A stretch of DNA of 11,275 nucleotides from an uncultured bacterium (GTDB lineage: Bacteria; Eisenbacteria; RBG-16-71-46; CAIMUX01), in NCBI GenBank assembly GCA_946886185.1, contig CAMPIC010000042.1, forward strand, positions 1-11,275. Direction: 5' to 3'. This document shows, one piece after another, positions 1 through 9,851 of the stretch (the first letter of the stretch is position 1; each line of letters starts with the position of its first letter). The position numbers were made by a program, and so were the translations under genes. The notes under the pieces are model-generated. The model saw only the letters and a list, made by a program, of their open reading frames with translations. It made no database searches and was not told where the DNA came from.

Positions 1-738
1 CTGATCGCGCCGGGCACCTACGCGCTCACCGGCACCTCCACCGGAACCGCGGGCAATGAGATCCGTTCCATCTCGCTCAATCTCATGAATCTCCCGGGCC
101 CCGGCGCCTATCCGCTCGGTACGGGCGCCGGCGTTTCCGGAGGAATTGCCTCGTACATCGAGCCGGGCTCGGGTTGGACGACTCCGCTCAGCGGACTCGC
201 GGGAACCCTCACCGTGACGACGCTCACGGACAATCGCATGGTCGGGGAGTTCGCATTCGTTGCGAACCTGTCCACGGGATCAGGTCCCGATACCCGGACC
301 ATCTCTTCCGGTGCGTTCGACGTCCCGGTCGTGATCACAGGGACGCCCGGAGAGGTTCCGGATCGCAACCGCAACATGATCTCTGCGAAATTCGACGATG
401 AAATGTGGGTAGGGTCGACCGTGGCGACCACTCGGAATCCTTCCGTTATGATCTGGAGCGCGAACAACACACGCTGGTCCGCTTCGTTCTCATGGAACGG
501 CGTCGCTGCGCCCGACACGTTGGACCTCTCCGTCGAGAATCCTCCGATTTCGATCACGATCGGGCGGGTGGACGGCAGCGCCACCTGGAGTCTCGGTGCG
601 GGAGCGCAAGGAACGGTGGCGGTCGAATCGGTGACTCAATCTCGAATCGCGGGCCGTTTCGAGTGCATTCTCCCCCGCGCCCTCGGTTCCGGCGATCCGC
701 TCATCGTGACGGACGGAGTGTTCGACATCGGCTTCTGA
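1..738 (+). CDS. Partial repeated beta-sandwich protein (DUF6252-like), 5' end missing
   Basis: The reading frame is open from the first base to a TGA at 736-738, so the true start lies upstream of the window; 245 residues are visible. They form about two copies of one module. The first begins near residue 4 and ends around residue 105 with ISSGAFDVPV. The second begins at a short SAKFDDEMW stretch and ends with IVTDGVFDIGF at the C-terminus. Both carry the pattern G-x-hydrophobic-x-V, then I/M-x-G-x-F, then S/T-D-G-x-F-D. This resembles DUF6252-type secreted or lipoprotein beta-sandwich modules, by recall of the family pattern rather than a search. The sequence is rich in Gly, Ser and Thr, typical of an extracellular protein, but any signal peptide is outside the window. 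No catalytic motif is seen and the function is unknown. It converges on the beta-helix gene ending at 980. Confidence 0.75.
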   Translation: MIAPGTYALTGTSTGTAGNEIRSISLNLMNLPGPGAYPLGTGAGVSGGIASYIEPGSGWTTPLSGLAGTLTVTTLTDNRMVGEFAFVANLSTGSGPDTRTISSGAFDVPVVITGTPGEVPDRNRNMISAKFDDEMWVGSTVATTRNPSVMIWSANNTRWSASFSWNGVAAPDTLDLSVENPPISITIGRVDGSATWSLGAGAQGTVAVESVTQSRIAGRFECILPRALGSGDPLIVTDGVFDIGF

Positions 739-979: not shown

Positions 980-2044
980 TCAACGGGACGTCCTTGGGTT
1001 GAAGGTGCTCTTGATTCGTCCCCAGCTGGACCGCTCCACGGCAACGGGGTCCCCGCACGCGACCGGCTGAGCGCCGATCAGGCCGCACTCGGGATTGGCG
1101 GCGGGCGCACATGGAGAGATCTCGTGTAGACGGAATTCGCCGTCCAGACCGCAAAAGAGCGGATCCAACGCCAGGTTGCCGCGCAGGTCAGACTGGCCGC
1201 TGGCGCATCCCACCCAGTCGCCCCCTTCGTTCCCAAAGATGTCGGAGCAGGAAATCAGCACGTCGGCGAACGGAAGGCATTCGACGCCCCTGGAGCCGGA
1301 GTTGAACGCGATGATGCAGTTTTCGATGGTCATGACAGGCGCGGGCAGGCCGCCTGTGAACAAGATCGCCGCTCCGAGCTCACAGGAATTGCCGACAATG
1401 GTGCATCCCCTCACGGTCGGCGCTCCATCGATGGCCAAGATCGCTCCGCCACCTCCGTTCAGCGCCGCGGTGTTGTAGGCGATGACGCAGTCCTCGACCT
1501 GAAGGGTGCTCGATGGGTTGTATGTCGAGGCGATCGCACCGCCCATGATCGCGCCGTTTCGGACGAACCGGCACGACCGGATCGTGGGCGACGCTCCCTT
1601 GCACAGGACGGCACCGCCCATGCTGAACCCGTCTTCATCCGGGCCGTACCCGTTCTGGACCGTTACTCCTTCGAGAACCGAGTCGTTGCCCTCGCCGTGG
1701 GCGAACAGAAAGCCTCGATGTGGCGCGGACACACTGCCGCCGCAGTCGATGAGGCATCGCGTGGGATCTCCGCTCTGGGAACGGATGGTGATCGCCTTGC
1801 CCAGGAAGTCGATATCTCGATTGCGTATCCGTTCGAAGGTCCCGTCGGTCAGCTCGATGACGTCTCCGTCCACGGCTGCATCCACGGCACGTTGGATGGA
1901 GGGGAAGTCTCCGGTGCCATCGGGTCGCACCACATAGATGGCTGCTGATGCACTACCGGCCACGAGCGCGAGACTCGCCGCCAATACCCACGGTCCCCAA
2001 GACCTGCTCGTCTCGCATCGCGATGTGGATACAGCCATGGTCAT
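980..2044 (-). CDS. Exported right-handed beta-helix (pectin-lyase-like) repeat protein
   Basis: The product is 354 residues. The ATG at 2044 is chosen because AGGAGG (2052-2057) sits 7 nt upstream; an ATG at 2038 would be spaced less well. Residues 18-34 form a hydrophobic signal peptide ending SASA, with likely cleavage before AIYVV. Residues 37-100 match the start of pectin-lyase-fold proteins (DGTGDFPSIQRAVDAA, then GDVIEL, then KAITIRS). Residues about 110-300 hold short coils of the PbH1 type, with repeating TIRSCRFVRN, LQVEDCVIAYN, TVRGCTIVGN and TIENCIIAFN. The end of the domain (LDPLFCG, then EFRLHEISPCAPAANPECGLIGA) is typical of secreted beta-helix proteins from uncultured bacteria. 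No carbohydrate-lyase catalytic residues are evident, so it may bind or be structural. It ends in a short tail containing SSWGRIK. It is the second gene of a unit with the DUF3160 protein. Confidence 0.85.
   Translation of the reverse strand: MTMAVSTSRCETSRSWGPWVLAASLALVAGSASAAIYVVRPDGTGDFPSIQRAVDAAVDGDVIELTDGTFERIRNRDIDFLGKAITIRSQSGDPTRCLIDCGGSVSAPHRGFLFAHGEGNDSVLEGVTVQNGYGPDEDGFSMGGAVLCKGASPTIRSCRFVRNGAIMGGAIASTYNPSSTLQVEDCVIAYNTAALNGGGGAILAIDGAPTVRGCTIVGNSCELGAAILFTGGLPAPVMTIENCIIAFNSGSRGVECLPFADVLISCSDIFGNEGGDWVGCASGQSDLRGNLALDPLFCGLDGEFRLHEISPCAPAANPECGLIGAQPVACGDPVAVERSSWGRIKSTFNPRTSR
998..1039 (-). other. C-terminal WG..K tail motif of the beta-helix protein
   Basis: After the beta-helix ends (VACGDP), the protein closes with VERSSWGRIKSTFN followed by five more residues. 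The central S-S/T-W-G-basic-I/V-K-x-x-aromatic pattern recurs at the very end of the unrelated exported protein at 9240-9851. A shared short tail on two secreted proteins of different fold suggests a sorting or processing signal. That role is inferred. Confidence 0.5.
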
Positions 2045-2051
2045 CCCGATG

Positions 2052-2057
2052 CCTCCT
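2052..2057 (-). promoter_or_regulatory. Ribosome binding site overlapping the upstream stop codon
   Basis: On the minus strand the sequence TAGGAGG contains both the TAG stop of the DUF3160 gene (2056-2058) and the AGGAGG ribosome binding site of the beta-helix gene (ATG at 2044). This fixes the start of the downstream gene and suggests that the two are translated in a coupled way from one mRNA. Confidence 0.75.
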
Positions 2058-4911
2058 AACGAATCATGACCAACTTCTGGGTGGAAACCTCCGACCCCGC
2101 TTCCAGCGCGACGTAGTACACCCCGGCGGAAGCCTTTCTTCCGTCGGAGTCGTTTCCGTCCCATTTCACGTGGACGAGGTGTGGGCCTCCATCCATGCGG
2201 AACGAGCGCACCCGACTTCCCACGCTATCGAAGATGGAAATCTGGACTCCACCCGTATGCGGCTGCGCGAGTCGGAACGAAATGATCGCGTCGCCACGCG
2301 CCGGGTTCGGCGACACACCGAAGAACGGCGTCAGACTGTCCGGAGCATCGGCCCCGTCGTCTTCTTGCCCATCGCCTTCTTGCCCGTCGCCCGGAGCGCC
2401 ATCGTCATCTGGAGGCGTGCCGGTGGAGTCCGAAGGAGCACCACCGTCATCAGGCGTGCCGGTCGAGTCTGAAGGCGCTCCATCGTCATCGGGTGTACCC
2501 GTCGAATCTGAAGGAGCACCGCCATCATCGGGTGTGCCGGTCGAATCCGAAGGCGCGTCCGTGGAATCCGGAGGCGCATCGTCCGGATCACCCGGATCTC
2601 CGCCCAACGGCGCCGGCAACACCCAGTCTGTAACTTGGAGCGGCGGCTCAGTGACCAGCCTCGGACCACCAGCTACTGCGCGTCCTCCGGCGTCGGCCAG
2701 ATACACATTCGTCCAGTCCGGGCGCGCCGGAGCGCGGCTGCTTCGATACAGATGGTTCCACTCCTCGTCGCTCAGGCGAGTGAACCCGGAGGTGACGAAC
2801 TGGTGATACGAAGCCACCGGACCGACGTACGCGATCGCATCGCATCCCGGGAGCGCAGCCACGAAAATGCCGAGCTCCGGATCACCGGTCGCGACGTGCA
2901 GCACCTGCCTGCGGTTCGGATCGGTATGCACGTCCGCCACCACCGCATCAGGTTCAAGCGCGGTTCCCGCGAAGTCGTCCTCTATCGATCTCCCATTTAC
3001 GAAAGACGCATAAATCAGATCCGGATACCAACCCAGATGCTCCGTCGAGCCGTGACTGCAGGCGTCCCCATCGGCGGGGTAATAATGGGTGTCGTATGCG
3101 GCCGACTGGAGGAACCGGAACTCATCCTCCGTGAAAGACTCCCCCATGAGCTCCTTGGTCGCGATCCTACCGAGCTGATCCAGTGTCTGTTCGAGATTGT
3201 CGAAGTAAGATTCGACGTCGCGCAACCTCGGAACCGACGCGAATGCTTGGGATGCTCGCCGCGCGAACGTGGCCAGGGCGCTGTAGAACTCCGGCACCGG
3301 CTCGACGTATCCGTGCGGGTACGAGCACGTAGGAAGATCGCCCGTATACGACGGTTTGGCGTAGAGCAGGTTGTCGTGACGCAGCTCTGTCCAGGCGGCA
3401 AGCTGCGTGTTCACCTTCTGCTGCTGCCACGCGCCGGTTTCCATGAACTGCGGCACTTCATCCCCGCGTCCCGTCTTGGAGAGAGTGCGAATGGCCTCCA
3501 GCCATGCGGTGTAAAGACTCTCTCCCCAGGTCGCTTCGTCTCCGCTGTCCATCAGATAGCGCAGCGCGCCCAGGTTCCAGGCGTATTCGTGAGTCTCCAT
3601 CTCGGTCCGGAGAAACGGAAGCACGTCGTCGTTTCCCAGGGCGAAGAGGGCATCGAGAGGGTCCGGCATCACGCGGCAAGGCGGCTCCAGAGTTTCCGGG
3701 TTGGCGCAAGGAGTGAACGGATAGACGACCTGGCCGGTGATGAACGAGTCGGGAATGAAACGCTGCCCCATGAGCAGGAACGAAAACGGCAACCCTTCGC
3801 GGCTCGGATCGAGCTGGAAGTCGAACGTCAGAACCTGAGAGAGAGTGCGTTGCGCCGCGTAGGGACCGCGGTTCAACTCCGCAACCAGTTCGCTCACCCG
3901 GCTTGATTCGAGGAATGCGGGCGCGGGCAGCGCGCCAAGGGACGCGGACAGGCTCTCCAGGTCCGCGAGCGTCAGGTTGTCCGGAGCTGCCACCAGCTCG
4001 CGCAGGATGCGATCGATGTTTTCCAGGTGCGGTTCAGCGCCACTGGTTCTCGCGAGCTCCGCCAACAGGAAGGCGTCGGTGATCTCGCGAGAGAGATCCT
4101 CCCGTCTGTCCGGATGGGTGAATCGAAACTCGGTTCGTCCGATCCACATCATGCAGCGAAAGTACTCCCGGATCCTTCCTTCCTGCGAAGTGTAGTGCCC
4201 TCGCAGCTTGAACTGGCTGAAGTCATAGACGCGAGTCCTCGGATGGAAGAGTGCGATCTCCACGACCTCTTCGCTCTGGATCAGCTCGAGGATCGTCGCC
4301 ACCTCGCTTTCGACATCGCTCCAGGGTTGAATGTCGCGCCGAGGTTCGAGCAGACGGCGAGCCACCGTCAGATACACGTCCAGATCCGCGAGACAGCGTT
4401 CGACGCGAGGATCTCCCGCATGACGCCTTTCCAGCTCCGGCCAGGCGGCGTGCATCTTCTCGATGGCCGTATCCAACTGCGGGAGGAGGTACTCCGTCTC
4501 CACCTTCTCCAGGATCTGATCATAGGAGCGATGAACCGCGTGCAGGATTGCATCGGTGGAAATGAAGACGGGCAGGTCCGCATGCCAGACCCACTTGAAT
4601 GCGTCTCCGTAGGACTCATGACGCCAACGCTGACTGACGACGAAGTCGTGTTGTTGGAGAAGGGCAAGCTCGTCGCGGGTGAGGCCCAGCTTCGCGTCGA
4701 TTTCCTCGAAAAAGTACGGAGCCACTTCGCGACGAGGGACCGCAGGCTCGTACGGCCCGAACGGTTCGTACGAATGGATGAGCTGTTCTCCTGACAAACC
4801 CCACGTTTGCGACAGATGCGCGCGATAGGCCTCGAAGTCGAACTCGGCCTGGGCCGACGAGGAGAGGGTCAAGACAAACAAGACGACGAGAGATCGAGCT
4901 TCCCACTTCAT
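2056..4911 (-). CDS. Exported DUF3160-family protein with Ser/Thr/Pro/Asp linker and FlgD-Ig/T9SS-like C-terminal domain
   Basis: The product is 951 residues. The start at 4911 follows GGAGGT (4916-4921) with a 4-nt gap, and it places a clean signal peptide (residues 1-22, ending SSSAQA) at the N-terminus. Residues about 45-780 match the large, mostly helical DUF3160 family, including PVFISTDAILHAVHRSYDQI at about 114-133. Its function is not established. Residues about 787-840 are a low-complexity linker of four near-identical 13-14 residue units, followed by Asp/Gly/Glu-rich sequence. Residues 859-951 form a C-terminal domain opening with SPNPARGDAIISF and containing WDGNDSDGRKASAGVYYVAL and a closing TQKLVMIR. 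This is the pattern of FlgD-Ig/type A sorting domains of type IX secretion substrates. The protein is therefore predicted to be surface-exposed or secreted. It is the first gene of a unit with the beta-helix protein. Confidence 0.88.
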   Translation of the reverse strand: MKWEARSLVVLFVLTLSSSAQAEFDFEAYRAHLSQTWGLSGEQLIHSYEPFGPYEPAVPRREVAPYFFEEIDAKLGLTRDELALLQQHDFVVSQRWRHESYGDAFKWVWHADLPVFISTDAILHAVHRSYDQILEKVETEYLLPQLDTAIEKMHAAWPELERRHAGDPRVERCLADLDVYLTVARRLLEPRRDIQPWSDVESEVATILELIQSEEVVEIALFHPRTRVYDFSQFKLRGHYTSQEGRIREYFRCMMWIGRTEFRFTHPDRREDLSREITDAFLLAELARTSGAEPHLENIDRILRELVAAPDNLTLADLESLSASLGALPAPAFLESSRVSELVAELNRGPYAAQRTLSQVLTFDFQLDPSREGLPFSFLLMGQRFIPDSFITGQVVYPFTPCANPETLEPPCRVMPDPLDALFALGNDDVLPFLRTEMETHEYAWNLGALRYLMDSGDEATWGESLYTAWLEAIRTLSKTGRGDEVPQFMETGAWQQQKVNTQLAAWTELRHDNLLYAKPSYTGDLPTCSYPHGYVEPVPEFYSALATFARRASQAFASVPRLRDVESYFDNLEQTLDQLGRIATKELMGESFTEDEFRFLQSAAYDTHYYPADGDACSHGSTEHLGWYPDLIYASFVNGRSIEDDFAGTALEPDAVVADVHTDPNRRQVLHVATGDPELGIFVAALPGCDAIAYVGPVASYHQFVTSGFTRLSDEEWNHLYRSSRAPARPDWTNVYLADAGGRAVAGGPRLVTEPPLQVTDWVLPAPLGGDPGDPDDAPPDSTDAPSDSTGTPDDGGAPSDSTGTPDDDGAPSDSTGTPDDGGAPSDSTGTPPDDDGAPGDGQEGDGQEDDGADAPDSLTPFFGVSPNPARGDAIISFRLAQPHTGGVQISIFDSVGSRVRSFRMDGGPHLVHVKWDGNDSDGRKASAGVYYVALEAGSEVSTQKLVMIR
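2393..2551 (-). repeat. In-frame tandem repeat (42 + 3 x 39 bp) encoding the linker
   Basis: Four adjacent copies lie at 2393-2434 (42 bp), 2435-2473, 2474-2512 and 2513-2551 (39 bp each), with more degenerate copies towards 2590. Each encodes GAPSDSTGTPDD plus G or D; the 42-bp copy has one extra Pro. Differences are mostly at third codon positions, so the peptide is conserved more than the DNA. The array joins the DUF3160 domain to the C-terminal sorting-like domain. A copy-number change would alter linker length without breaking the frame. Confidence 0.9.
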
Positions 4912-4936
4912 GGCGACCTCCGATGCGGCGAAGACC

Positions 4937-5182: not shown

Positions 5183-6328
5183 TCAGCTCGATCGCGCGGC
5201 TTTGGACGAGGCGGACACGATCGCCGCAGCGTAAAGGAGCGCTGCCAGACCTCCGAGGATCACGACGGCGCGCCCGGCTTCGGTCGTCCCGCTTCCGGAG
5301 GACACGATGCCGAGCCCGTGCGCGGTCGCGCCGCCGACCAGCAGGCCCATGACCGTGACGAACGCATCTCCATTGCCCTCCCCGGAGAGCACCATCTGAC
5401 GCACAGGACACCCGCCGGCGAGCGCGCCGGTCAATCCCACGACCGCCATCGCGGCGATGTTCCATACCGTCTCCGGCTGCGAAGCAGGCTGACCGGTCCA
5501 ACCGAATTTCCATGCGCCGGTCATCAATGAGATCAACGCGTATCCCACGACGAGACAGCCCGCGCCGATCAACATCGCGCGCTGGCGAAGGAACACTTGG
5601 CGGGCCGCGGTCACCGCGCAAAATCCGGTCGCCGACATGATCGCGCCCGCGATCGACGCGATCACAAGCGACCAAACCCAGAAGGCATGGGGCGGATCAC
5701 CCGCGGCTCCGGGCCCCGGTCCCGCGAGTCCTGCGCCGAAGAGGAACGCGAGCAGCAATGCGGCAGCGACCGCCGGGCCGACCCATCCGACGGCCGGAGC
5801 GACGACCGCGGTGCGCCCGATGGAATAGCCTTTCTTCTCGAACCACAGTCCGACCCCGACACCCGCGACGAATCCGATCGCTCCCATCACCGCGTGCAGG
5901 TCTCCGCCCCCGATCCGTTGCAACATCCGGAATGGACAACCCAGAAAGACGAGGGCGGTCCAACCCATGATCACGCCCAGGAGGAACCGGCTCACGGCGA
6001 AGCTCCCCGAACGCGCCTGATACTTCCGGCGAAGCACCACCCAGAAGAACGCGCCCAGAATGACTCCGGCCACCTCGGGCCGGAAGATCCTCGGTCCCGC
6101 GCCGGTGAACATGTTCAGAGAGCCGGCTGTATCCCGGAGAAAGCAGGCTCCGCAGATCCCCATGTTTCCCGGATTGCCGAGGAACACGAGCAACGAGGCT
6201 CCCACTCCGACGGCCGCCATCAACAGCCAGCCCAGCCGCTCGCCTCGCTTGCTCGTGCTATCGCTTCTCAGCATTGGAAAGAACCCCGACTTTCGTGACT
6301 GGTGAACTTCGGGAGAGGCGAGGTTCAT
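5183..6328 (-). CDS. yedE: YedE/YeeE-family membrane transporter (putative selenium or sulfur-compound importer)
   Basis: The product is 381 residues. The ATG at 6328 has an ideal AGGAGGT (6334-6340) 5 nt upstream. The protein is hydrophobic, with about nine to ten membrane segments. It contains the signature pieces of the YeeE/YedE family: GNPGNMGICGACFLRDTAG (residues 51-69), LGCPFRM (129-135), GGDLHAVMGAIGFVAG (141-156) and GGCPVRQMVLSGEGNGDA (305-322). Conserved cysteines are at 59, 62, 131, 237 and 307. Related YeeE proteins import thiosulfate using membrane cysteines. The YedE subgroup is annotated as a selenium transporter because it co-occurs with selenium-use genes. The full-length pattern fits the YedE subgroup, but no selD, yedF/tusA or sulfurtransferase gene is in the window, so the substrate is unproven. 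The first 30 residues are a charged cytoplasmic extension. Confidence 0.87.
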   Translation of the reverse strand: MNLASPEVHQSRKSGFFPMLRSDSTSKRGERLGWLLMAAVGVGASLLVFLGNPGNMGICGACFLRDTAGSLNMFTGAGPRIFRPEVAGVILGAFFWVVLRRKYQARSGSFAVSRFLLGVIMGWTALVFLGCPFRMLQRIGGGDLHAVMGAIGFVAGVGVGLWFEKKGYSIGRTAVVAPAVGWVGPAVAAALLLAFLFGAGLAGPGPGAAGDPPHAFWVWSLVIASIAGAIMSATGFCAVTAARQVFLRQRAMLIGAGCLVVGYALISLMTGAWKFGWTGQPASQPETVWNIAAMAVVGLTGALAGGCPVRQMVLSGEGNGDAFVTVMGLLVGGATAHGLGIVSSGSGTTEAGRAVVILGGLAALLYAAAIVSASSKAARSS

Positions 6329-6428
6329 CGCGCACCTCCTATGAATCGATCCCACATCGACCCGGCAGTATCTCCAGATCAACTCCAGTAGGTCCACAAC
6401 TCCATGGTGTCCGGACAGACAGGAAGGG

Positions 6429-7312: not shown

Positions 7313-8689
7313 TCACGCCACGCCCGCTTCCTGCTCGTCGTAGCGCACGCGACCGGGACGCCGCCAGGCATGCGTGCTCCCCACTTCGAGGATTTCGTCC
7401 AACTCATCCTCATAGAAGAAGCGAGACTCCCCGAAGGCCGGGCGCAGATCCGTCAGCCAGGTTGCCTCCGGATCGAATTCCGCGAAGAACGGCCGCTTCA
7501 CCCAGGACGGATTGCGCGCCTGGAGGAACTGGAGCACGAAGACCCTCTCCCCGTTCACTTCTGCGATCCCCTCAATGGACACCTTGCCCGGGAGCGCCGA
7601 CATCGACGGGCCGCGGGCGGTGCGCGCCAATCCGGAGACGCGCCGAATCGCGGTGCGATAGATCTCCACGGCGCGCGCCAGCGGAACCTCGAAGTGGTGC
7701 TGCGCGCCTGTGTTCCGCTCCACGAACATGTAATAGGGCGTGCAACCGAGCTCCACCTGCATCTGCCACATCTTCGCCCACACCGCGGGATCGTCGTTCA
7801 CGTGCCGCACGACGGGCGACTGCGTCCGGTACTGCGCCCCCGTGGCGCGGATCCGCTCGATGGCGCGCCGCGCGATCGGAGTCGAAAGCTCCACCCAGTG
7901 GGAGTGATGTCCCATGATCGAGAGATGCTTGCCGGCCGCTACGATGCGTTCGAACAAGCCCAGGACATCATCGGCATCCTTGTCGGTCACGAATCGGTAC
8001 GGCCAGTACGCCACCGACTTGGTTCCGATGCGGATCGTGCGCACGTGCGCGAACTTCGGCCCCAGGAGCGGCTCGATGTACTCCTCGAGCTTGCGCGCGG
8101 TCATGATCATCGGGTCGCCTCCCGTGATCAGGACGTCGGTCACTTCGCGATGACTTCGGATGTGCTCCAGGAACGTGCGGGCTTCGTCGGTCGCGAACTT
8201 GATCTCGTCGGTGGGAACGAACTGCGGCCAACGGAAGCAGAAGGTGCAGTACGCATGGCAGGTCTGGCCGCTGGAAGGAAAGATGAGGACCGTCTCGCGA
8301 TACTTGTGCTGCAAACCGGGGACAGGCTCGCCGTCGAGGAGCGGCACGTTCGCGGAGCGCTGACCTGCCGGGTGGGGATTGAGCTGATTGCGGATCTGCC
8401 GCGCTACGGATTCGATTTCGCTGCGCCCTGCATGGGCTCGCACCAGGCGCGCCATTCTCTTGTATTGGTCCGGGCGAAGCATGTCCCGCTGCGGAAAGGT
8501 GAGCTGGAACATCGGATCGTCCGGAGCCCGCGTCCAGTCGATCAGTTGGTCGACCACGTAATTGTTCGTTCGGAAGGGAAGGACTTCGGCCACGACCCGC
8601 ATTTCCTCGATGCGTTCCGGGTCCAGTAGCGCGAGTTGCGGAATATCTTCAAAATTGCGGGAGCCGTAGAACTTCATCGTGTCCTGCAT
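7313..8689 (-). CDS. KamA-family radical SAM/PLP aminomutase-like protein, altered substrate pocket
   Basis: The product is 458 residues. The ATG at 8689 has ACCTCCT (8695-8701, AGGAGGT on the coding strand) 5 nt away. The radical-SAM cluster motif C144-HAY-C148-TF-C151 fits CxxxCxxC, and R153 matches the arginine that holds the amino-acid carboxylate in lysine 2,3-aminomutase (LAM). GGDPM (190-194) is the SAM amino-group motif. The LPGK segment with K369 aligns with the PLP-binding lysine of LAM (PGGGGK). The C-terminus (RNPSWVKRPFFAEFDPEATWL, then LRPAFGESRFFYE) belongs to a LAM-like subgroup. By eye-alignment on PYY (318-320), the two aspartates that bind the lysine side chain in LAM are missing; R325 takes the place of one. 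The C-terminal zinc cysteines of clostridial LAM are also absent. I infer a 2,3-aminomutase on something other than lysine, perhaps an acidic amino acid. It is longer than EpmB, and no efp or epmA is nearby. Confidence 0.85.
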   Translation of the reverse strand: MQDTMKFYGSRNFEDIPQLALLDPERIEEMRVVAEVLPFRTNNYVVDQLIDWTRAPDDPMFQLTFPQRDMLRPDQYKRMARLVRAHAGRSEIESVARQIRNQLNPHPAGQRSANVPLLDGEPVPGLQHKYRETVLIFPSSGQTCHAYCTFCFRWPQFVPTDEIKFATDEARTFLEHIRSHREVTDVLITGGDPMIMTARKLEEYIEPLLGPKFAHVRTIRIGTKSVAYWPYRFVTDKDADDVLGLFERIVAAGKHLSIMGHHSHWVELSTPIARRAIERIRATGAQYRTQSPVVRHVNDDPAVWAKMWQMQVELGCTPYYMFVERNTGAQHHFEVPLARAVEIYRTAIRRVSGLARTARGPSMSALPGKVSIEGIAEVNGERVFVLQFLQARNPSWVKRPFFAEFDPEATWLTDLRPAFGESRFFYEDELDEILEVGSTHAWRRPGRVRYDEQEAGVA

Positions 8690-9239: not shown

Positions 9240-9851
9240 ATGAAGCTTGCGACCATGCTCGTCGTCCTCGCCGTTTCGCTCACAGCCTCGATTGCTCACG
9301 CCGAGCGGATTGCTCAATCCGGATCGTTCGTGATCGATCTGGACACGATCGAACGCGAAGCTCCGCAAACCCCTTATCGCGGCTCGTCGAATGTGCTCGA
9401 TAACGCTGGGTTCGAAACCGGCTCGCTTCCGCCGTGGAACACCACCGGATGGACGGTGACCAGCGCGGATGCGCAGTCCGGCACCTACTCCGCGGAGGGC
9501 ATCGGGAATAACTACGTCGAGCAGTTTTTCACTCCAGTCGACGTGAACTCGATCAATGCGGTCGGCTTCTGGGTCAGGCAGCCGGAGCAAGCGCTCCAGG
9601 CGATCGACTTCTTCTACGGCGGCGGCGATTTCGATGAGTTCCTGATCTTCCCGTTCGCGGACTGGAGCTTCTTCGACGTGACCTCTCGGCTCCGCGCGGT
9701 CGGCAATCTGGAAGGGATCCGCATCTGGGGGTACACGGGCGGAGGTCCTGATATCGACCTCACTCGCGTCGACGACGTCGTGATCGACGCGGACGTCGCG
9801 ACGCCGATCCAGGAGTCCACTTGGGGCAAGGTGAAGCAGCTTTACCGTTAA
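9240..9851 (+). CDS. Small exported protein with galactose/carbohydrate-binding-like domain
   Basis: The product is 203 residues. The ATG at 9240 has GGAGG (9231-9235) 4 nt upstream and yields a good signal peptide (residues 1-21, ending IAHA). Residues about 50-184 look like a jelly-roll module of the CenC/galactose-binding type: NAGFETGSLPPW (55-66), then GWTV, SGTYSAEG, EQFFTPVDV, an alternating strand region with FFYGGGDFDEFLI (124-136), and the closing VDDVVIDAD (177-185). Such modules bind sugars or act as surface adhesion domains; no catalytic domain is present. The last 14 residues, after the domain, carry ESTWGKVKQLYR, which matches the tail of the beta-helix protein at 980-2044. It stands alone between a long regulatory gap and a strong terminator, so it is likely monocistronic. 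The family is not named with certainty. Confidence 0.82.
   Translation: MKLATMLVVLAVSLTASIAHAERIAQSGSFVIDLDTIEREAPQTPYRGSSNVLDNAGFETGSLPPWNTTGWTVTSADAQSGTYSAEGIGNNYVEQFFTPVDVNSINAVGFWVRQPEQALQAIDFFYGGGDFDEFLIFPFADWSFFDVTSRLRAVGNLEGIRIWGYTGGGPDIDLTRVDDVVIDADVATPIQESTWGKVKQLYR
9807..9848 (+). other. C-terminal WG..K tail motif of the small exported protein
   Basis: IQESTWGKVKQLYR forms the exact C-terminus. It aligns without gaps to VERSSWGRIKSTFN near the end of the beta-helix protein: the S, W, G and second K are identical, and the other core positions are conservative (V/I, E/Q, S/T, R/K, I/V, F/Y). Confidence 0.55.

Follow-up and report, generated by a model that had tools for sequence, protein, structure and literature searches.

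The locus raises the question of why two exported proteins of unrelated fold should end in nearly the same short peptide. The window, i.e. the whole stretch of DNA analysed here, covers 11,275 nucleotides from an uncultured bacterium of the Eisenbacteria lineage. A first-pass annotation had pointed to a shared tail on these proteins and had suggested a sorting, anchoring or processing tag. Tails of this kind were presumed to occur in Eisenbacteria, and the evidence of the present analysis is independent of that presumption.

Two window proteins with a common C-terminus

The first WG tail, IQESTWGKVKQLYR (9807..9848, forward strand), is followed directly by the stop codon of a small exported protein of 203 amino acids (9240..9851, forward strand), a CBM-like beta sandwich according to a structure model. 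The second WG tail, VERSSWGRIKSTFN (998..1039, reverse strand), is followed by the five residues PRTSR and then the stop codon of an exported right-handed beta-helix protein of 354 amino acids (980..2044, reverse strand; PF13229, E-value 1.9e-11). Both tails were found where they had been annotated, and a six-frame scan of the window gave no third [ST]WG.[IVL]K. The signal peptides annotated on both proteins are seen by eye at both N-termini: at 9240..9302 (forward strand) in the small protein, with cleavage after AHA and a helix at residues 2-16 in the AF2 model, and at 1943..2044 (reverse strand) in the beta-helix protein.

The AF2 model of the small protein, based on 44 sequences, places the sandwich within residues 24-184, and the nearest structures are the carbohydrate-binding modules CBM61 and CBM16. 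The tail is predicted as a helix at residues 192-201, at a pLDDT of about 50. This agrees with the earlier claims that the two folds are unrelated (beta sandwich by model, beta helix by PF13229) and that the tail of the small protein lies outside the folded domain. Neither window tail is covered by any model in Pfam or NCBIfam.

Given the amino acid composition of the window, its eight proteins should contain the aromatic-bearing motif 7.7e-6 times within their final 25 residues. An origin of the pair by chance or by common descent is refuted by this expectation from composition (about 8e-6), by the unrelated folds and by hundreds of further cases. Nothing was found in its favour, and we assign it practically no probability.

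Composition and spread of the tag

The genome-wide motif test was carried out in the genomes of relatives with a strict DNA pattern, W-G-x-[IVL]-K-x-x-[YF]-R with a stop codon directly behind it, and the reversed pattern was used as control. The last codon of the strict pattern, TRR, also allows TGG, which was seen in single matches. A strict match was present in 48 of 386 genomes drawn around G457, and the reversed pattern in three genomes. Fifteen crowded genomes had from 9 to 58 strict matches apiece, 443 in sum, with a reversed control of 0 (G664 58, G793 43, G481 38, G554 33, G791 33, G661 33, G649 32, G819 32, G524 27, G780 27, G691 22, G726 20, G521 18, G589 18 and G627 9). The phylum of G694 had one to three matches in 15 of 42 genomes, with the reversed pattern in three, and four of the 16 genomes with a KamA-like locus had a strict match (control 0).

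Of 296 genomes from the phylum to which the Ignavibacteria record G006 belongs, 71 had a match, nearly always a single one, and the reversed pattern occurred in six. One match per genome is the usual number in the Bacteroidota. Twenty-seven of the 28 loci read from the G006-phylum search encode small exported proteins of a single FnIII-like type, whose C-terminus reads [RK]-[TS]-W-G-[ST]-I-K-[AS]-[LM]-F-R; the 28th, L086, is a chance frame of 33 residues, and L082, L124 and L126 from the same search are chance frames of 12-30 residues. WOR-3 was rejected as a tailed phylum, four of 147 genomes against seven reversed matches being control level; the sole believable WOR-3 tail belongs to a beta-helix protein of G448.

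Relatives of the window proteins themselves were also searched for. Within 22 whole genomes the small protein had a match in G694 only (44% over residues 50-201), which ends in LEQSTFGGIKALLGS, and a third window protein, the DUF3160 protein described below, was matched at 31-39% both in G591 and within the phylum of G694. Candidatus Eisenbacteria is the source name of five among the 120 proteins listed for the beta-helix protein, itself included. When only its final 40 residues served as query, the beta-helix protein retrieved itself alone (one of six candidates), this query being too short for the tool. The first-pass annotation had expected similar tails in secreted proteins of uncultured FCB-type bacteria, and this is supported: the tail recurs in uncultured relatives including those named Candidatus Eisenbacteria. 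The WG tail is a widespread and apparently undescribed C-terminal tag in little-known bacteria with type IX secretion machinery (T9SS). No description of it was found in the titles and abstract starts of papers listed by searches of the open-licence PMC library. Four similar-looking tailed genes stand on one short contig of G726 (L205), and five stand consecutively in G819 (L207).

For a consensus, 56 tails were taken by a looser pattern from 847 genes, called with a simple gene finder of our own in sequence sampled from 12 crowded genomes. The resulting consensus is P-[VT]-E-x-[ST]-[ST]-W-G-x-[IV]-K-[AS]-[LM]-[YF]-R (PVExSTWGxIKALYR-like), in which the tryptophan and part of the other positions were imposed by the search pattern. 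Outside the demands of the pattern, serine or threonine precedes the tryptophan in 53 of 56 tails, glutamate stands four residues before it in 39 of 56, and the protein ends directly past the arginine position in 52 of 56. A strongly hydrophobic stretch within the last 45 residues is absent from 55 of the 56, a hydrophobic 17-mer being found in one, and the hydrophobic moment of the tail is just moderately above that of shuffled sequences.

A score matrix was built from the 56 tails, all from other genomes than that of the window. The window tails score 30.3 and 29.6 bits, and an equal or higher score was reached by two of 300,401 background 15-mers, both of them tail-like and from proteins that look exported: one lies close to the end of a lipoprotein-like protein of G524, the other is internal to a protein of G793. 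In the 375-kb sample of G664, [ST]WG.[IVLM]K occurred 16 times at the C-terminus and never internally. The exported-looking protein of G793 (L188:2469-3932) carries the motif inside, at residue 152, and an apparently decayed copy at its end.

The FnIII-like proteins were modelled with AF2 from 49 sequences, which have 25-49% identity to the first of them. The model consists of a signal helix, a sandwich and a separate tail helix at residues 122-133 (pLDDT 73-83), and a comparison with the PDB gave weak matches, two of them at E<=0.001. W, G, K and R are invariant in this set because the search pattern demanded them; among the positions not demanded, T before W and I are each present in at least 90%, and F is invariant. 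The tail thus lies outside the fold in the models of both the FnIII-like and the small window protein, and its helix is a weak prediction.

Link to export and exchange with known C-terminal signals

An excess on exported proteins had been named as what a sorting tag should show. Such an excess was found: 43 of the 56 tailed genes were assigned a signal peptide, compared with 173 of the 791 other genes (P=9e-17, by a crude rule and with pieces chosen around tails included). By eye, several of the 13 tailed genes failing the rule have an ordinary signal peptide at the start. For the 305 genes on the 375 kb sampled from G664, the first rule flagged 137, and a stricter rule used in its place assigned a signal peptide to 16 of 19 tailed genes against 90 of 305 overall (P=5e-7). 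A 400-kb sample of G819, picked irrespective of tails, contained four tails in 309 genes; two of these four had a signal peptide against 51 of 305 others (P=0.14), which alone is not significant. The bodies of the tailed proteins are diverse, with a beta helix in 9 of 56, single cases of FG-GAP, CBM96 and LTD, and others, and at least 29 of 56 have no Pfam match at E<=0.001. The tail thus behaves like a C-terminal tag that exported proteins carry irrespective of their fold, in line with the sorting, anchoring or processing role first proposed.

Directly upstream of the beta-helix gene and on the same strand lies the gene of an exported DUF3160 protein (2056..4917, reverse strand; PF11369, E-value 6.6e-151; the start codon at 4917 is our choice). 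This protein ends in a FlgD-Ig or T9SS type-A-like domain (2059..2316, reverse strand), matched above the cut-off by PF13860 (E-value 3.8e-7) and under the cut-off of 23 bits by TIGR04183 (21.3 bits, E-value 2e-4). A local model of FlgD-Ig-like domains was made from 18 seeds and matched the C-terminal end in 43 of 847 genes, none of them among the 56 tailed ones. Among signal-peptide proteins, 5.6 proteins with both tail and domain would be expected and 0 were observed (P=0.0012). Adjacency of tailed and FlgD-domain genes was not significant (P=0.19).

The same exclusion is found within one protein family. At E<=1e-20 the beta-helix protein retrieved 854 database proteins; 120 of them were listed, including the sequence from the window itself. 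The remaining 119 comprise 97 with the tail among their final 40 residues, 19 with a FlgD-Ig domain, 0 with both and three with neither, and this listed part may slightly favour tailed relatives because the query itself has the tail. The FlgD-Ig domain was called by precomputed Pfam in 17 cases and by eye in two; among the matches listed, the tail motif is absent throughout these 19 relatives. Two of the three relatives with neither signal look cut. One relative, P0153, ends in a dockerin-type-like repeat and has neither tail nor FlgD domain. The distinction drawn in the first-pass annotation between the tail and the FlgD/T9SS-like domain therefore holds, as the two never occur together in the 56 tailed proteins or the 119 listed beta-helix relatives. 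Among the 97 listed tails, lysine stands four residues before the terminal arginine position in 94 and arginine in three; 43 end at the arginine position and 29 are one residue longer.

The small protein retrieved 45 database proteins including itself, and the tail is retained in 40. Of the five relatives lacking it, one stops short of the tail (P0035), three have other ends, and P0047 has a PEP-CTERM end (PF07589) where the WG tail would be. The same body is thus found with different C-terminal sorting signals, as would be expected if the tail were a signal and not part of the fold. In a tree of the beta-helix bodies the tail or domain label needs 15 changes against 17.9 when shuffled, and 7-12 of 500 shuffles were as low. 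This suggests repeated exchange of tail and domain, although we give the tree no weight because its support is poor and just one change is forced.

Relation to type IX secretion

SprA, the translocon of the T9SS (TIGR04189, E<=0.001), was found in all 15 crowded genomes and in all 11 tried genomes with one or two matches, in G495 below the cut-off. It was also found in four of four tail-less WOR-3 genomes, and 16 other tail-less genomes gave one strong and two weak matches. Among the 386 genomes, at E<=1e-20, 44 of the 48 with a tail have SprA, compared with 63 of the 338 that lack one (P=1e-23). The four tailed genomes without SprA at this threshold have one or two tail matches each; SprA of G495 is at 8.6e-19, and G558 belongs to the phylum of G694, which has real tails. 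The PorV family (PF19572) gave a match in each of the 40 SprA genomes tried, for three of them solely under its cut-off, and in none of four others. All 15 multi-tail genomes have PF19572, with at least two matches in each, and the matches are therefore taken as PorV-type, each a candidate PorV only. SprA is spread across FCB phyla, so that shared ancestry alone could account for much of the co-occurrence.

A co-occurring peptidase or membrane protein had been proposed as a further check. No convincing receptor or peptidase was found beside tailed genes in the Bacteroidota loci looked at, the neighbours being SpoIID and DUF6055 by Pfam and MATE and Maf by eye. In three Ignavibacteria-type loci (L133, L134 and L137) a SpoIID-domain gene comes next after the FnIII-tail gene, in the same orientation and 6 to about 225 bases away, and maf- and MATE-like genes are nearby; SpoIID was called by Pfam at L133 and L134 and by eye at L137.

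Several C-terminal signals are available for comparison. PEP-CTERM, GlyGly-CTERM and MYXO-CTERM, read by exosortase, rhombosortase and myxosortase, respectively, are also short tags on dozens of unrelated exported proteins per genome. They consist of a motif, then a transmembrane helix and then basic residues, whereas the WG tail has no transmembrane segment or basic cluster behind it and 52 of 56 proteins end at the tag. The LPXTG motif of sortase substrates is likewise a C-terminal sorting motif of exported proteins, followed by a hydrophobic stretch with a charged end; the WG consensus contains neither LPXTG nor such a stretch and end. The terminal signal read by BAM is the last beta strand of a barrel with an aromatic final residue; in the FnIII and small-protein models, what precedes the WG tail is a complete domain other than a barrel. 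No catalogued sorting domain was named in the Pfam and NCBIfam tally of the 56 tailed proteins, save a single weak hit to NF033554, a family of PEP-CTERM proteins (E-value 0.0014, its place in the protein not given).

Closest in setting are the C-terminal domains of the T9SS (type A, TIGR04183/PF18962; FlgD_ig, PF13860, in the genomes studied here; types B and C), which are likewise C-terminal on Sec-exported proteins of SprA-bearing bacteria. Such a domain is a seven-stranded beta sandwich of 80-100 residues, whereas the WG tail is a single peptide of about 15 residues (a helix in the models), and models of T9SS domains had no match in the 56 tailed proteins (NCBIfam at E<=0.01, Pfam at E<=0.001, local model of the C-terminal domain 0/56). 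According to passages of PMC11285876, secretion of the T9SS cargo RgpB is blocked by the loss of two C-terminal residues, and extensions are tolerated. Type A domains have a near-invariant lysine close to the C-terminal end that contacts PorV; the contacts vary, and the authors suspect its main role elsewhere (parts of PMC10994853). The WG tail resembles type A in the lysine near its end and in tolerating residues beyond it. Distinct signal classes use distinct shuttles (PMC12618676; for types A, B and C, PMC10202324).

Our best reading, which we consider somewhat probable, is that Eisenbacteria-like and other FCB bacteria use the WG tail as a short sorting tag at the C-terminus of Sec-exported proteins. 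It would replace, in far fewer residues, the 80-residue FlgD-Ig/T9SS-type domain found on other proteins of the same genomes. The tag and its C-terminal place, the link to export, the independence of fold, the absence from proteins with a T9SS-type domain and the co-occurrence with SprA were shown by computation. Counted against this reading are the folded nature of known T9SS signals (domains of about 80-100 residues), the control-level result in WOR-3, the G819 sample, the non-significant adjacency, the usually single match in Bacteroidota, the internal motif in one G793 protein, the moderate hydrophobic moment and the 63 SprA genomes without a strict tail match. The last of these would suit a genuine sorting or processing tag read by a machine of its own and not by the T9SS, with SprA co-occurring as an old FCB feature. 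That the tail is unlike any T9SS domain, and that the Bacteroidota loci read have one conserved FnIII-like tailed protein per genome, as for a dedicated partner, also fit such a machine. We nevertheless regard it as rather unlikely, since few tailed genomes are without SprA (4/48 at E<=1e-20, among them G558 from a phylum whose tails are real), tail and T9SS-type domain interchange in one protein family, and the Bacteroidota loci examined have no consistent receptor- or peptidase-like neighbour.

The tail could also be an anchor or docking peptide, a short helix holding proteins at the surface or in the periplasm after export by other means. The AF2 models are consistent with this in the separate C-terminal helix of the FnIII protein (122-133) and the low-confidence helix of the small window protein. 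Furthermore, W, I/V, L/M and Y/F together with K and R would fit a docking helix, and CBM-like, beta-helix and FnIII-like bodies are found on tailed proteins. A plain anchor, however, could well occur together with the FlgD-type domain; moreover, the tail has an unexceptional hydrophobic moment, and ten residues are short for stable binding to a membrane; we consider an anchor improbable.

Returning to a sorting tag in place of the T9SS-type domain, we infer its helix, receptor, route, final location and T9SS dependence as follows. The tailed protein would be exported by Sec, a T9SS carrier would recognise the tail, and the protein would then cross or attach at the outer membrane. Recognition by a T9SS carrier is favoured by three parallels in the literature and seems the most likely by resemblance. 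More tentatively, the WG tail may be a fourth class of type IX signal: a linear peptide of 15 residues in place of a folded domain, read by a SprA/PorV-type translocon, retained by a single FnIII-like protein in many Bacteroidota, multiplied over dozens of cargos in Eisenbacteria-like phyla, and perhaps resembling the earliest T9SS signal. Hundreds of exported proteins in uncultured phyla, many of them without known domains, would receive a predicted destination from 15 residues. If the T9SS reads the tail, a linear peptide can substitute for the folded domain to which descriptions of the signal have been confined to date, and would offer a minimal handle for studies of cargo recognition and for secretion of other proteins. 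For lineages that are hard to grow, the tail is a concrete and testable sign of secretion.

Three other genes were noted in the window. A DUF6252-like protein fragment with an open 5' end (1-738, forward strand) has neither a WG tail nor a FlgD domain match. A YedE-family putative selenium transporter is encoded at 5183-6397 (reverse strand; TIGR04112, 293.9 bits against a cut-off of 200). The KamA-like radical SAM protein at 7313-8689 (reverse strand) is under the cut-offs of the NCBIfam models shown and has 64% identity to an Ignavibacteria protein; used as a query against genome contigs, it gave matches in Ignavibacteria and others.
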